IMG/VR virus record: IMGVR_UViG_3300037502_001564
Coordinates: 1 to 38,964 of that record
Reading direction: 5' to 3' (one strand)
DNA: 38,964 nucleotides
Source of the DNA: a virus
Both the position numbers and the translations under genes were made by a program. This document shows, piece by piece, positions 2,338 to 33,273 of the stretch (its first letter is position 1; each line of letters opens with the position of its first letter). The notes under the pieces were generated by a model. The model saw only the letters and a list, made by a program, of their open reading frames with translations, was not told where the DNA came from and searched no databases.

Positions 2338-2436
2338 ATGCGTATTCGTGACATCATCGCCGATCTGATCGGCGTCATCGCAATTTTCGGCGGCGGCTAC
2401 GGCCTCCTGCTCATCGGGCATGGGCTGGGGTGGTGA
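2338..2436 (+). CDS. Tiny single-span membrane peptide, 32 aa
   Basis: The frame gives a 32-residue peptide with a charged start (MRIRDIIAD) followed by a continuous hydrophobic, glycine-rich stretch of about 20 residues ending in GLGW, which would span the membrane once. AGGAGA lies nine bases before the ATG, and its TGA overlaps the ATG of the methyltransferase (TGATG). Function is unknown; tiny phage membrane peptides of this type can modify host membrane processes or superinfection. It is too short for usual gene callers. Confidence 0.45.
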   Translation: MRIRDIIADLIGVIAIFGGGYGLLLIGHGLGW

Positions 2437-3569
2437 TGCCAGCCTATTACAACGAGATCGACCCCAAGGCCGCCGCGTGGCTGCGGGAACTTATCAAGCA
2501 AGGCCACATAGCCGATGGAGTGGTGGATGAACGATCAATTGTCGATGTTACCCCTGATGAAGTGCGAGGCTTCACCCAGTGCCACTTCTTCGCAGGGATC
2601 GGCGTCTGGTCCTATGCCCTGCGATCAGCAGGCTGGTCAGACGACCGTCCTGTTTGGACAGGAAGCTGCCCGTGCCAGCCTTTCAGCGCGGCAGGTGCAA
2701 GAGGCGGGTTTGATGACCAGCGGCACCTCTGGCCTCATTGGCACCACCTCATCAGCCAGTGCCGCCCTCCAGTCGTCTTTGGCGAGCAGGTTGCAAGCAA
2801 GGACGGCCTCGGTTGGCTCGACCTTGTACACGCTGACATGGAAGCAACGGGCTACGCCTTCGGGGCTGCAGATCTGTGCGCTGCGGGCGTCGGCGCGCCG
2901 CACATCAGACAGCGCCTCTGGTTTGTTGGGCTGGCAGACGCCAGTGGTTCAGGACAGCAAGCAGAGCGGGTTGGCTCCGTCAGGGACGGGCAACAGCCTC
3001 AAGCTGTCATTCGAGGTGCAGCGGGCGGGCTGGCCAACGCCGACAACGCCGAGCGGTGGTCAGACACCGCCAGAGGGAACGTCGGCGACGGGCATCACGC
3101 CGGACGGCAAGAAGGTGCAGGTCACGCTGAAGGACGTGGCGCAGATGACGGGCTGGCCGACACCGCAGATGCGGGACTTCAGATCGGGCGGGGAGGATCG
3201 GGTGGAGAACCCGGATCGGTCGAACAATCTGAACGACTTCGTACTGATGGCGGGCTGGCCGACGCCAACGACCAGGGATCACAAGGACGGCTCGGAGTGT
3301 CTGAACGTGCCGACGAATGCATTGCTGGGGAGGGTGGCATGGTCTGCCGGGTGGACGACATCACACGGCCCGGCCCGACTAACGGCTTCTGGCGAGATGC
3401 TGACTGGCTCTTCTGCCGGGATGGTCGCTGGCGGCCAGTTAGATCCGGCTCATTCCCGCTGGCTCATGGGTCTCCCGCCAGAGTGGGACGACTGCGCGGT
3501 TACGGCAATGCCATCGCTGCCCCGGTCGCGCAAACCTTCATCGAAAGCGTAATGGAGATACTAGCATGA
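2436..3569 (+). CDS. DNA (cytosine-5-)-methyltransferase
   Basis: This 377-residue protein transfers a methyl group from S-adenosylmethionine to carbon 5 of cytosine in DNA. Motif I FFAGIG is at 51-56 and motif IV PCQPFS at 79-84 with catalytic Cys80. Motif VI is the variant GEQV at 116-119, motif [12 protein letters not shown] at 158-165, and motif X around [11 protein letters not shown] at 355-365. An unusual N-terminal extension of about 45 residues precedes motif I. The segment between VIII and X, where target recognition should lie, is low complexity: Gly/Ala/Asp/Arg-rich with four GLADA-like repeats at about 165, 198, 239 and 273. No partner endonuclease is visible, so it probably protects phage DNA from host restriction. 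The start is the ATG overlapping the upstream TGA; two GTG codons precede it in frame. A second long frame overlaps it (see 2527-3552). Confidence 0.88.
2527..3552 (+). CDS. Overprinted ORF with GWPTP repeats, inside the methyltransferase gene
   Basis: This +1 frame stays open for 341 codons inside the methyltransferase gene. The ATG at 2527 has GGAG six bases upstream; an in-frame ATG at 2515 has no such site. Visible features are a Ser/Ala/Leu-rich region and a conserved-looking LYTLTWK segment. These are followed by GWQTP or GWPTP repeats at nucleotides 2929, 3028, 3151 and 3253 and a C-terminal [14 protein letters not shown]. From memory, phage and metagenome annotations contain many proteins with WPTP repeats followed by WLMGxPxxW, usually named as methyltransferase-related; I cannot search to confirm. 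The segment LMTSGTSG followed by a Ser/Ala-rich stretch also fits that group. Function is unknown. The alternative is that it is only a by-product of GC-rich coding in the other frame. Confidence 0.5.
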
Positions 3570-5006: not shown

Positions 5007-5419
5007 CCGTAGACATGACCAACAACCGAGTGCCGTATGGCCTGCTGACCGACAAGGAAAAGGCTGCGCTGCATGAGCATGAGAAGGCGGGTGGGGTCTT
5101 TAAGGTTTCCTATGAGTCCCATCTTGTTTGGACAATTATCCCCACACCCACTTGGAAATCATTCAACATCTACCGCACCGTTCCCCTGCCCGCAAAGACC
5201 CAAGACGTGATCGCGTGGGAGAAGCTGCCTGATTGGGTTGAGTGGGTGGCGCGGAATGAAGACGGCACTGTTTGGTGCTTCCAGTTTGATCCTGAAGATC
5301 GGAGTGGGGTGTGGTTAAGCGGGTCAAAATATCGCCGCATCGACGACTTCCCCGGCATCGTGGTGCAGATCGGGACAGTGGATTGGACTGAATCTAAACA
5401 GCGGAGGCCACGGGGATGA
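5003..5419 (+). CDS. Hypothetical protein, 138 aa
   Basis: The protein starts MTVDMTNN and is rich in aromatic residues, with many Trp (WTIIP, WKSFNIYR, WEKLPDWVEWVA, WCFQFDP). It appears mostly beta-stranded after a short N-terminal helix (LTDKEKAALHEHEKAG). I do not recognise a named family. It is coupled to both neighbours by ATGA overlaps and precedes the Lar-type gene. Role unknown. Confidence 0.6.
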   Translation: MTVDMTNNRVPYGLLTDKEKAALHEHEKAGGVFKVSYESHLVWTIIPTPTWKSFNIYRTVPLPAKTQDVIAWEKLPDWVEWVARNEDGTVWCFQFDPEDRSGVWLSGSKYRRIDDFPGIVVQIGTVDWTESKQRRPRG

Positions 5420-5988
5420 GTGACGATCTAAAACCCTGCCCGTTCTGCACGGAAGGGAAATCTGTCAGCACTTACTTCGACCACGAGCAGGGCGACAAGT
5501 GGGGATATGCCGCATGTGATGCCTGCGGGGCTAGAGGTCCAGAAGTCCGCACCAATTATGACCGTGCTGATGATGCACCGTGGCGGGCCGAAGCTATCGC
5601 AGCATGGAACACCCGCACCCCTGACCCTCGCATCGAAGCCCTGACCGCTGATAGGGTTAAAAATAATAAGGATTACTGCGCCTTAATGGAACGGTATGAC
5701 GCCCTGTACGAGCAACTCGAAGCCGCCAGACATGACGCCGATGAGGCCGAGGCTTATGCGGAGGAGTTGGCGAAGGATCAAGTTGATCTGTGCCGTCAAC
5801 TTATTGCCGCAGAAGATAAGCTGGCGAAGGTGGTGGAGGCGCTGCGGGAGATTGCCAAACCCAAGGTTGGTCCTGATTTTGACTGGTCTGAGGATGAGGT
5901 GAACAAGTGGAGGGCAGCCTGGTATCGAAAATACGGAGATATCGCTCGCACCACGCTGGCCGAGATTGAGACAAGCGATGCCCCGTGA
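5416..5988 (+). CDS. Lar-type restriction alleviation protein with coiled-coil extension
   Basis: Residues 1-67 match the Lar family: two zinc-binding knuckles, CPFC at 8-11 and CDAC at 34-37, an aromatic strand between them, and the closing A-I-A-A-W-N-T-R at 60-67. Lar proteins of prophages relieve host type I restriction. Residues 75-145 form an extra, strongly charged helical region likely to be a coiled coil, followed by a short C-terminal helix. The typical Lar protein is much shorter (about 60-70 residues), so this is an extended version. It shares an operon with a DNA methyltransferase and a possible modification protein, which supports a shared defence-evasion role. Confidence 0.75.
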   Translation: MSDDLKPCPFCTEGKSVSTYFDHEQGDKWGYAACDACGARGPEVRTNYDRADDAPWRAEAIAAWNTRTPDPRIEALTADRVKNNKDYCALMERYDALYEQLEAARHDADEAEAYAEELAKDQVDLCRQLIAAEDKLAKVVEALREIAKPKVGPDFDWSEDEVNKWRAAWYRKYGDIARTTLAEIETSDAP

Positions 5989-22788: not shown

Positions 22789-22847
22789 GGCATTAGACCC
22801 CTTGGATGGTTGAAGGGGGCGAGTTTCCCCGCCCCCAAAGATCACAA

Positions 22848-24143
22848 TCAGGGAACCTGATTGAAGAGCAAGATACCCGACATCTCGGGCTGCTTGTTCA
22901 CAACGCCGAAGAAGGTATCCATACGATACTTCGTGACGGCGGTGTTGATGTCGTAGAACTTCTGCATCACCAGTTCGATGCCCTGATCGGTGGTGCCACG
23001 CATCACGTCAACGCCAGCGTTGGTCGGGATTGCGTAACGACCCGGCAGGATTTCCAGAGCGTCTTTCTGCCAGAAGCAGTTGATGTCAGCGGCATCGACG
23101 TTCAGGATCGTGACGGTCGAACCGTTGGCCGGGGTGGCCGTGACGTTCTTGTACTGCAGTTCTGCATCGGTGCCGCCCTGAGCCGAGATGATCGGCGGAG
23201 AGATGACAACGGTGTTGTTACCAGCAGTGCCGCCGCCCGAGGTGATCGAGATGATGCGGAACGTCTTGGCCTGGCCAGTGTCGCCCTTGGTGATGTGATG
23301 CACCGCGTTGACGCTTGCCAAACGGAAGCAGTCACCAACGCGCACGACAGCACCAGCAGCCAACGTGATGTTGAGCGACTGATAGCGGTTGTCCACGTTG
23401 GCGGTTTCACCCGTGCCTGCGGTCGAGGTCGCACGCGGGGTGTAGTACTGGTTCGCGCCGTTGATGGTGATGTCACCGACCGGGGTGGTGTTCCCCAGGA
23501 TGCGGTTGGCATAGTCCATCTTGTAGGTCTGGAAGCCAGCGACTTCACCGACGAACGAACGCTCATAGGCGGTGGTCGGCTTGCCCGTCATGGTCTGACG
23601 GCCAGCGAGATCCGACGCCATGCCGTTATACGAACGCGAAGACAGCGCCAGATAACGGTCGAACATCTGCACGCCCTGCTCGTTGAACACAGCGTCGCAT
23701 TCAGCCACGTCAGCGTAACCGCCAGCGGAACTGGAGCGGGTCACGACCATCGTGGACTGGGCAGCAGCCACGTTCATGATGGCGACGTTGATGTCCGAAG
23801 CAAGTTTCTGCTTTGCGGAATCGCCAAGGCGGCCTTCTTGCAGTTGGTCGCGCAGTTCTTTCGCGTCCAGAGCAAACGGCACGGTCTTGTTGAAGCCGAG
23901 AGTTGCCGGGACAGCAAGCTGCGTGAAGTCAACGAACTGCGACGAGATGTCGGTGCGCGGCGCGCCGTTGATCGAGGTCGCAATGTAGGGCTGCGGACGC
24001 CAGATCACGTCATTGGTGCGTTCCATCATCGAGCCGTCGGTGTTGTAAACCGACACGTTGCGCGACATTACCAGCGCATCGTTGAAGCCTTCGAGGATGT
24101 TCTCAAAGGCAACTCGTTCTTCTTTTGAAAAAGCGTTAGCCAT
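22848..24143 (-). CDS. Major coat protein (P22 gp5-like)
   Basis: The product has 431 residues, almost exactly the length of P22 coat protein (430). It starts MANAFSKEERVAFENILEGF and shows the P22-type series: VMSRNVSVYNTDG near 26-38, a WRPQPYI segment, and DISSQFVDFTQLAVPA near 65-80. Next come FALDAKELRD near 92-101 and a beta-rich insertion-domain region near 220-345, ending with HK97-fold-like strands. It assembles the icosahedral shell with scaffold protein from the gene next door. A good ribosome site AAGGA precedes the ATG. Confidence 0.9.
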   Translation of the reverse strand: MANAFSKEERVAFENILEGFNDALVMSRNVSVYNTDGSMMERTNDVIWRPQPYIATSINGAPRTDISSQFVDFTQLAVPATLGFNKTVPFALDAKELRDQLQEGRLGDSAKQKLASDINVAIMNVAAAQSTMVVTRSSSAGGYADVAECDAVFNEQGVQMFDRYLALSSRSYNGMASDLAGRQTMTGKPTTAYERSFVGEVAGFQTYKMDYANRILGNTTPVGDITINGANQYYTPRATSTAGTGETANVDNRYQSLNITLAAGAVVRVGDCFRLASVNAVHHITKGDTGQAKTFRIISITSGGGTAGNNTVVISPPIISAQGGTDAELQYKNVTATPANGSTVTILNVDAADINCFWQKDALEILPGRYAIPTNAGVDVMRGTTDQGIELVMQKFYDINTAVTKYRMDTFFGVVNKQPEMSGILLFNQVP

Positions 24144-30972: not shown

Positions 30973-33273
30973 TTATTCCCCCGGCACAAACCAAGCCATG
31001 CGCGGCCTGCCCTTCTGTCCCTCGTTCACATTTCGACAAGCGATGCCTTTGTCTTGCACCAGCGCGTCAAGAACCTCCTGCCGCTTGCGCGGCTCAAGGT
31101 TTGCAAAGGCCCGGACGTTTTCGGAAAGTTCGCTGGCTGTGCAGCCGCGAAGGCCGGCCGCCTCGATCTTGGAATAGACGGCCTTGCACGCGGCCTCAAA
31201 CGGCCCGTCAGCGAGCGACCTGCGAAGCGCGGCCACCGCCCGTCCAGAATAGAAGGTCGCGTAGTCTATGGCCCACTGAAGGCTTGTGGCGCTGATCTGT
31301 TCCTCGCGGCGGGATCTGGCGACGATCAAGGCGATGCGCTGGGCGATTTCCTTTGTGCGGCCAAACATCGCCTCAAGCCCATACCGCTCATGCTCGTCCA
31401 TCTTGCGAAGCAGATCGATGTCGCAGGCGCGCAGGAGGTCGTGGCACTCGGGCGCGAATGAAATGGTGATTGGCGCGGGTGCGATGTCGAAGGTCTCGCC
31501 CGGCCCAAAGTTTCCATCCGATGCGGCGGCGCACTCTTGCGCCCACTCACACAGTTTCTCGCCAGGATCAACGCTGCGGACCATGCGCGAGGGCTGGCGG
31601 CCGATGTAGCTTTCCACAATCACGAAGCGGCCCAAGAAGCCGTCTGTGACGTATCGGCTTGAGAGGTTGTCGTAGAGCGTGCTGGGCGTGGTCATGCTCA
31701 TCAGGGTCAGGCTGGGGCAGCGCACCACCTTATCCAACTCCTTGGCCTGCTTTTCGGTGATGCCCATCTTGGAATAGCCTTGCGGGCGCAGAGTGCTGGT
31801 CTGCCGGCCAAACACCTCCATCAGGATGGTCTGGGCGTCTGTCTTGTGGTGGTTTCCTGCGGCTTGGGCTGTTTGTAGGACGCGGCCAAGCTCGTCGATG
31901 ATGCTCAGATGCGTTGGCTGCGAGACAAGGGCGGAAAAGACGCCGCTGGCGCTGGTGTATCCGCTCGGGCCGATCAGGTGTTCCAGCTTGGCGGCTTCAA
32001 GCAGGCGCTCCAGAACCGTCTTGGCATGTTCCTTTCCAGCGGCCGACTTGCCGACGTTGACGAAGTAAAGGCCGGACATATTAGACTGGTCAGTGACCCA
32101 GCGGCGGCCCATGACGACAGAGCCAAAGGCCAGAGCCGCTTGAACGGCAAACTGCGGCTGCTCCTTTGGGGCTGTGGTGTTGTAATAATGGACGGCCTCT
32201 TGCAGCACGCCGGGAACACCAAGCAGATGCTCAGGGATGTCTGACAGCGGCCCGGATGCTTCTTTTGGCTTGGCCAGGATCTGGGCAGCCACCTTGCGGC
32301 CATGCTCGATCTTTTCCGGCTCGTAATCATGCACCGGGTCAGACGAGACGTTGAGAAAATCAGCCGCGTCTTTGACGGCCTTGGTGATGTCCCCGCCATG
32401 CTCGTAATAGGACCAAAGTTCAAAGGCGTCGAAGGTGTGGGCGCTGTCGAAAGGATCGGATGCGTGGTGGCTGTAGGCTCGGCCGTCATCAAACAAGACC
32501 ACCCCGGCAAGACCGCTCTTGCTGTTGGGAGACAGATAGCGGCCGCGCGCGGTGGGGCGGTATCCGTAGCGCACAAGAAGCTCGTGCATGTCGTGGGCAT
32601 CATTGAAGGCATCAATGACGCTGGTGCGCTCGCTCGGCGCGCGTGGCTTGCGTGGAGGCTGAAACTCTTTGACGGGCGCCCAAGGGCAGATCTGCTGAAG
32701 CTGCGGCCTGAAGCGGTCCCACTCGGTCCAGAGGAGGAGAAGCGGCGCTGGGATCTCAGGCAGGCCGTCAAAGACGCTCGGCCCGGCCCAGGTGTATGGG
32801 CTTCCCGTGTCGGGATGGATCGACGGCGGCAGAACGTCCTGAACAGCGCCAGCGCGCAATTCAAACACGACCTCGGTTTTGCGGGGATCGCCCTGCACCG
32901 GCCAACTGATCTTGTGGGTTTTCAGCCCCTCTGGCGCGCGGAAAAGCACCTTGCCGCGATCAGGACGGCCGACGATCTTTGGCGCTGATGCAATGATTGC
33001 ATCGTAATCAATGCCGAGAGCCTCAAAGATGAGGCGGGTGTGGGCCACATTGTCTACATCAAGGGCGCAGGTGCCTGACGGCCCGTGCAACAGGCCCATG
33101 TTGTGCGATGGGTTGGCGGTGAAATATGCCTCGGCCTTTTCTGGGTCAGAGATGGCGCGCTCCGGCTGCTGCCAGCCAAAGGATGTCGGCCCCTTTGTTC
33201 CGGCAGGCATGGCCACCAAGAACCATCCAATGTCTGACGTGTAGCGGCGCGCAAATGATGCTGCGTCACTCAT
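30973..33273 (-). CDS. Primase-polymerase / DUF3987 helicase
   Basis: The 766-residue protein has an N-terminal bifunctional primase-polymerase (Prim-Pol) domain: residues 1-170 with MPAGTKGPTSFGW, the metal-binding DVD at 72-74, and LPPSIHPDTG near 148-157 with the PS-x-H element. The second half is a DUF3987-type helicase/ATPase with GKSAAGKE at 408-415 as Walker A and LSIIDELG at 456-463 as Walker B. It would prime and unwind DNA during phage replication. The C-terminal 60 residues are a winged-helix-like region. It begins inside the stop of the small HTH gene (ATGAGTGA) and ends beside the iteron region, which supports a role at a nearby origin. Confidence 0.87.
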   Translation of the reverse strand: MSDAASFARRYTSDIGWFLVAMPAGTKGPTSFGWQQPERAISDPEKAEAYFTANPSHNMGLLHGPSGTCALDVDNVAHTRLIFEALGIDYDAIIASAPKIVGRPDRGKVLFRAPEGLKTHKISWPVQGDPRKTEVVFELRAGAVQDVLPPSIHPDTGSPYTWAGPSVFDGLPEIPAPLLLLWTEWDRFRPQLQQICPWAPVKEFQPPRKPRAPSERTSVIDAFNDAHDMHELLVRYGYRPTARGRYLSPNSKSGLAGVVLFDDGRAYSHHASDPFDSAHTFDAFELWSYYEHGGDITKAVKDAADFLNVSSDPVHDYEPEKIEHGRKVAAQILAKPKEASGPLSDIPEHLLGVPGVLQEAVHYYNTTAPKEQPQFAVQAALAFGSVVMGRRWVTDQSNMSGLYFVNVGKSAAGKEHAKTVLERLLEAAKLEHLIGPSGYTSASGVFSALVSQPTHLSIIDELGRVLQTAQAAGNHHKTDAQTILMEVFGRQTSTLRPQGYSKMGITEKQAKELDKVVRCPSLTLMSMTTPSTLYDNLSSRYVTDGFLGRFVIVESYIGRQPSRMVRSVDPGEKLCEWAQECAAASDGNFGPGETFDIAPAPITISFAPECHDLLRACDIDLLRKMDEHERYGLEAMFGRTKEIAQRIALIVARSRREEQISATSLQWAIDYATFYSGRAVAALRRSLADGPFEAACKAVYSKIEAAGLRGCTASELSENVRAFANLEPRKRQEVLDALVQDKGIACRNVNEGQKGRPRMAWFVPGE

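Follow-up and report, generated by a model that had tools for sequence, protein, structure and literature searches.

M.EcoHK31I and M.EaeI are C5-cytosine methyltransferases (MTases) of the specificity YGGCCR, and both are made of two polypeptides. Lee, Kam and Shaw reportedly found in 1995 that the small gene of M.EcoHK31I lies within the large gene in a different reading frame and that activity requires both proteins. In the MTases of the Bacillus phages SPR, phi3T, rho11 and SPbeta, the region from motif VIII to motif IX holds a tandem series of exchangeable target-recognition modules, each about 40 residues long; these enzymes are single chains read in one frame, unlike the pair of genes described below. 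In C5-MTases the target-recognition region lies between motifs VIII and IX (PMC3404938). M.EcoHK31I has motifs I-VIII and X on its large chain and motif IX on its small chain, with the predicted TRD placed in the large subunit, and the title of the 1995 paper, as cited there, says that two proteins are required (PMC3404938). M.AquI has its catalytic unit divided between two chains, of which the small one includes motif IX and a portion of the variable region (PMC3404938). A prophage MTase with a predicted M.EaeI/M.EagI-like specificity is also on record, and the review that discusses it asks why it is apparently inactive (PMC4722110). A match on a Klebsiella aerogenes plasmid was followed as a lead to EaeI and was discarded, the region being phage-like with no restriction enzyme listed.

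By analogy, M.EcoHK31I is the closest precedent for the locus studied here. The split of motifs is the same, with I-VIII and X on the catalytic chain (alpha) and a putative motif IX on the second chain (beta), and here too one gene lies inside the other in another frame, as is said of M.EcoHK31I. When the two systems are compared by description, beta differs in that it also carries several shuffled variable cassettes, and alpha in that its linker is neutral. In M.AquI (CYCGRG) motif X is on the small chain, whereas here it is on alpha, and here beta lies wholly inside the alpha gene.

Layout of the two predicted chains

The window, that is the whole stretch of DNA that was analysed, is the virus record IMGVR_UViG_3300037502_001564 of 38,964 bases. 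The features of the locus are as follows.

2436..3569, plus strand: alpha, C5-cytosine methyltransferase catalytic chain, frame 0 (Pfam DNA_methylase, PF00145, 1e-11; PHROG_363, 1.6e-85; AlphaFold model)
2517..2520, plus strand: Shine-Dalgarno (SD) GGAG of beta, inside MTase codons (SD and start score against synonymous recodings)
2527..3552, plus strand: beta, putative subunit of 341 aa nested in the +1 frame (ORF, PHROG matches, stop depletion, selection, start signal)
2583..2609, plus strand: alpha motif I, HFFAGIGVW (near-invariant columns in alignment A5)
2664..2687, plus strand: alpha motif IV with the catalytic Cys, SCPCQPFS (near-invariant in A5)
2784..2792, plus strand: alpha motif VI in the variant EQV, not ENV (EQ invariant in A5)
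2815..2910 (approximate), plus strand: beta N-terminal hairpin region (G91, T98 and W99 invariant in 111 beta sequences; predicted two-strand hairpin, pLDDT about 70-87)
2901..2927, plus strand: alpha motif VIII, HIRQRLWFV (conserved in A5)
2929..3027, plus strand: beta cassette 1, ending in FEVQRA (cluster 13)
2961..3386, plus strand: alpha linker, the frame-0 reading of the cassettes, without conserved motif (predicted disorder; neutral; always open)
3028..3150, plus strand: beta cassette 2, ending in DVAQMT (cluster 20)
3151..3252, plus strand: beta cassette 3, ending in DFVLMA (cluster 1)
3253..3348, plus strand: beta cassette 4, ending in GRVAWSA (cluster 0, present in 18 loci at positions 1-4)
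3436..3492, plus strand: beta motif IX-like segment of 19 residues (C-terminal HMM matches actinophage MTases; resemblance to Dcm)
3498..3542, plus strand: alpha motif X, 15 residues (YGN invariant in A5; C-terminal helix with pLDDT 92-94)
5416..5988, plus strand: Lar-type restriction-alleviation gene, given for context (PF14354, 1.2e-9; phrog_599, 8e-17)

Alpha starts at ATG 2436, with an alternative GTG at 2430, and contains motifs I, IV (PCQ), VI, VIII and X in the order of a C5-MTase. In its AlphaFold model the catalytic domain (about residues 1-175) and the motif X helix are confident, and residues 185-326 are disordered, mostly with pLDDT 30-40. The fold is that of a Rossmann-like catalytic domain, the best matches in PDB being M.HaeIII (2.2e-8) and M.HhaI (1.7e-7). 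The alignments used for structure prediction of alpha and beta left out the rows from annotated-region loci. No xMGxPxxW motif IX-like segment was found in frame 0 of alpha in loci of the nested type; the segment is in the +1 frame instead. The conserved C-terminal part of alpha, RPVEPGTFPLAHGVPARV, could hold part of the motif IX or TRD function.

The beta ORF is enclosed by the MTase ORF (2430/2436-3569). In the window it has in-frame ATGs at 2515, 2527 and 2545 and a stop at 3550-3552, and the best start is ATG 2527, with GGAG at 2517-2520 and a 6-nt spacer. ATG 2527 is favoured, and ATG 2515 is not a general start, because in several sister loci the +1 frame is closed by a stop that falls after the 2515-type ATG and just before the 2527-type ATG. 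The first-pass annotation had described this 341-codon ORF with its GGAG-6-ATG inside the MTase gene, together with the GWxTP repeats and the 11-residue end of its product, and all of these are present as described. It had also proposed a search of the product against phage protein collections, which gave matches to phrog_1008 and phrog_31772 at about 1e-36.

Beta consists of a conserved N-terminal part, GSTLYxLTWKxxxTPSGRxxxxLRAS, followed by 1-5 cassettes and a conserved end of 18 residues. The hairpin region overlaps alpha motif VIII and the stretch that precedes it. Cassettes are typically 30-45 residues long with GWPTP at the start, and the window beta has four of them and a truncated repeat. 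When 483 cassettes from 148 loci were clustered, 205 clusters were obtained, and the common cassettes turn up in several positions with many different neighbours, which makes the arrays a mosaic. Several variable modules, shuffled among relatives, are placed between motifs VIII and IX as in multispecific MTases. The cassettes are candidate target-recognition modules and very probably act as such. The last part of beta looks like a motif IX, for which RRLTPRECARLMGFE of E. coli Dcm may be compared; this putative assignment draws on a short segment and on the actinophage fusions described below. AlphaFold modelling of beta alone (pLDDT 60.7, pTM 0.30) predicted one short helix per cassette and the N-terminal hairpin. 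Such a poor model is what would be expected of a chain without its partner, and it is no evidence of a fold, such as that of the MTase small domain. Searches with beta gave no match in PDB and no convincing match in Pfam.

Stops, start signal and selection in the two frames

In the window alone the open +1 frame is not significant and chance cannot be rejected, as synonymous shuffling of the window MTase gives 1.5 expected +1 stops against 0 seen (P about 0.14). The length of the ORF is weak evidence because of this P value and because this high-GC phage has other long ORFs. A 440-aa ORF at 22806-24128 (plus strand) lies antisense to a 431-aa ORF at 22848-24143 (minus strand) in the window.

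A chance ORF is rejected by comparison across relatives, for which the window by itself was insufficient. Eighty viral loci were gathered by the MTase protein only and, with the window and a few phage records, some of which were fetched via a +1 match, they made up a set of 85 loci. From motif I to motif X the +1 frame is free of stops in 79 of the 85; the whole set has 10 stops in the +1 frame against 233 expected and, for comparison, 1069 in the +2 frame against 941 expected. Over motifs I-VIII no +1 stop at all was seen in 63 unique MTase-selected loci, where 59.6 +/- 7.2 were expected. The +1 frame is broken between motifs I and X in L019, L036, L056 and L083, and also in L001 (phiKX1). 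A second collection was made by the +1 protein and contains 80 viral and 80 bacterial loci, some of the viral ones being common to both collections. The MTase frame is kept in the same phase in all 160 of these beta-selected loci, no stand-alone beta occurs among them, and the 27,591 codons of 143 loci contain a single stop in the MTase frame. Each collection retains the other frame, and the overlap is therefore obligate among the loci collected. The first-pass annotation had regarded overlaps of this kind as rare; in this family the overlap is the rule.

The start codon and the ribosome-binding site of beta are more conserved than chance would allow. Over 59 unique MTase-selected loci, the average of the best SD and start score is -6.47 against -0.46 +/- 0.69 (minimum -1.73) for MTase-synonymous recodings, a gap that is widened by the fixed penalty given to recodings without any start. 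ATG is used in 58 of the 59 loci, mostly 23 or 17 codons upstream of motif I.

Selection was measured frame by frame as dNN/dNS with our own simplified version of OLGenie counting, in which pair-based counts are non-independent and computed without a tree. For motifs I-VIII the +1 ratio is 0.52-0.69, and for the 50 codons that precede motif X (the IX/X region) it is 0.44-0.60; the same measure gives 1.08-1.9 for the unused +2 frame as a control. Within the cassettes, whose clustering by +1 sequence favours low +1 divergence, the +1 ratio is 0.12 (0.10-0.13) and the MTase frame has dNN/dSN of 1.21 (0.98-1.47), that is no detectable constraint. The clustering bias explains neither constraint at the level of 0.12 nor the neutrality of frame 0. 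Cassette differences at MTase codon positions 1, 2 and 3 are 0.309, 0.102 and 0.062, a pattern which is the third-position variation of the +1 frame. No MTase-frame stop is present in 460 unique cassettes against 409 expected, a set which is conditioned on the MTase ORF; the 1 stop per 27,591 codons is the less conditioned figure. As the +1 frame is constrained and frame 0 is neutral but open, the coding function in the middle of the gene belongs to the +1 protein, and the MTase frame there is a linker.

Purifying selection maintains both frames of the overlap. In the middle, however, the constraint shifts from alpha to beta, and within the mosaic cassettes only the +1 frame is constrained. 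It had been proposed in the first-pass annotation that relatives be compared for the retention of both frames, and that frequent +1 stops or a lack of purifying selection would speak against a second gene. The depletion of stops and the frame-specific constraint favour a +1 gene on both counts. The description of this gene as overprinted on the MTase holds for the gene ends only; in the middle third it is the +1 frame that is constrained and the MTase frame that is passive.

Frame swaps and the breadth of the arrangement

The beta C-terminal HMM matches single-chain MTases of SchottB, Papez, Fushigi, L346 and others just before motif X. The clearer actinophage matches range from 5.8e-10 to 1.7e-3 (SchottB 5.8e-9, L346 5.8e-10), with the best reversed decoy at 0.2. 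Gudmit, L335, L337 and L339 carry whole cassettes as part of the catalytic chain; the PTPEAKLANSGPDYARA cassette is in the catalytic frame in these four and in the +1 frame in L346 and SchottB. The protein sequence of a cassette is kept in whichever frame it occupies, and fused cassettes sit between motifs VIII and IX. L268, a Paenibacillus copy, differs from the sister copies of the same strain in that its motif IX segment is read in the catalytic frame and a motif X was not found; this layout perhaps came from a frame-changing indel.

The nested arrangement is present in hundreds of phages with hosts among Proteobacteria, Firmicutes and Actinobacteria, and is mostly annotated as a single gene. 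A scan of distant loci covered 79 with a recognisable PCQ motif, in which the motif IX-like end is in the +1 frame in 63 and in frame 0 in 3, and was missed by the pattern in 13; the GC content of the MTase gene goes from 0.38 to 0.66 across distant loci. The same overlap is seen in Vibrio, Salmonella, Tunturiibacter, Microbacterium and Escherichia BASEL phages. Most records annotate only the MTase (epsilon15, RcCWillis) and some annotate both genes (K1G, PhiXhv-5). In Redbud, a Paenibacillus larvae phage, the same nested gene is gp51, annotated as 'g50 internal gene', and in K1G it is the +1 ORF30, annotated as 'Mte8-like protein'; like beta, both are nested in the +1 frame of a phage MTase gene, and their records give no function. 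All 111 members of the beta alignment A4 match both phrog_1008 and phrog_31772. These are the beta families, and their label, DNA methyltransferase, hides a non-catalytic overlapping partner. No description of the overlap in phages was found in the open-access literature, subscription papers lying outside the search.

Some individual records may be mentioned here. In phiKX1 (LC644975.1) a partial +1 ORF at 1636-2244 is annotated as a hypothetical protein and the methyltransferase was missed. An HNH-like segment at 2240-2770 of the same phage interrupts the motif IX/X region, conserved in both frames; no Rfam match to a group I intron was found at the insert. NC_023841.1, named Dunaliella viridis virus SI2 (algal host), has the end of a phage-type MTase pair at 31056-31313, and its host label may deserve a check.

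Alternative readings and the proposed enzyme

We consider it highly probable that the locus encodes a nested two-subunit C5-cytosine MTase, in which alpha is catalytic, beta provides the cassettes and motif IX, and the two form a joint anti-restriction enzyme. It could instead be supposed that a single polypeptide arises by programmed frameshifting, in which alpha is read up to motif VIII, a +1 slip follows, and the ribosome goes back to frame 0 for motif X. The switch of the constrained frame from 0 to +1, the shared end, and the in-frame fusion of the cassettes and motif IX with the catalytic part in some actinophages are in keeping with such a product. However, two shifts would be required, the +1 frame is maintained over motifs I-VIII as well (0 stops against 59.6; dNN/dNS 0.52-0.69), beta has its own conserved SD and ATG, and frame 0 is open across the cassettes against 409 expected stops, so that we regard frameshifting as improbable. 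Slightly more improbable is that beta works separately in anti-restriction or regulation and merely shares the DNA of the MTase: beta never occurs without alpha in 160 loci, and actinophages have its C-terminal segment and the cassettes as part of the MTase chain, although the Lar restriction-alleviation gene in the neighbourhood and a diversity of cassettes that fits an arms race would suit a protein of this kind. By far the least credible reading is that the +1 ORF is a by-product of the codon usage and amino-acid repeats of alpha, which would then be the sole gene. The P of about 0.14 for the window alone, and the fact that PHROG families can come from wrongly called frames, are what can be said for it, but it is refuted in practice by the depletion of stops, the frame-specific selection, the conserved SD and start, the neutral evolution of alpha across the cassettes and the frame swaps seen in nature. 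The view of the first-pass annotation that a second, methylation-related protein is encoded in the +1 frame is strongly supported by comparative selection, its translation being predicted. Of the alternatives 'anti-defence or methylation-related' the second is retained, with beta as a likely subunit of the same MTase, and a separate anti-defence protein is not.

For the nested two-subunit MTase we infer from sequence comparison the following course of events. Alpha would contribute the cofactor-binding and catalytic motifs I-VIII, a disordered linker and the C-terminal motif X. Beta would be translated from its own Shine-Dalgarno and ATG inside alpha, and would supply the hairpin region, motif IX and, at the TRD position between motifs VIII and IX, one to five cassettes. 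The two chains would assemble into one enzyme methylating the phage DNA, probably at several target sequences, one for each cassette or cassette combination. Phage DNA methylated in this way would escape host restriction, and swaps of cassettes would change the specificity. The Lar-type gene lies about 1.8 kb downstream of the MTase in the window; its nearness suggests an anti-restriction region and fits the anti-restriction role proposed for the enzyme. The Lar gene is not a constant partner of the MTase: of 14 related records, which include fragments, none had a Lar match above the cut-off.

What is new in comparison with M.EcoHK31I is the modular cassettes, the breadth of the family, the switch of constraint and the natural frame swaps. 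It may well be, and we lean slightly towards this view, that these loci form a large and ancient class of heterodimeric nested phage C5-MTases, in which recombining cassettes of a +1 specificity subunit re-target methylation and indels shift cassettes between the chains. If this is true, many 'orphan' phage cytosine MTases (those of epsilon15, K1 coliphages, Paenibacillus phages and others) would need two proteins, a recoded clone of the annotated gene alone would be expected to yield an enzyme that is inactive or has the wrong specificity, and prediction of specificity from the catalytic chain would be looking at the wrong frame. The locus is an unusually clear natural nested overlap, in which the constrained frame switches within the gene and modules cross frames, and models of the origin and evolution of overlapping genes are directly testable on such loci.
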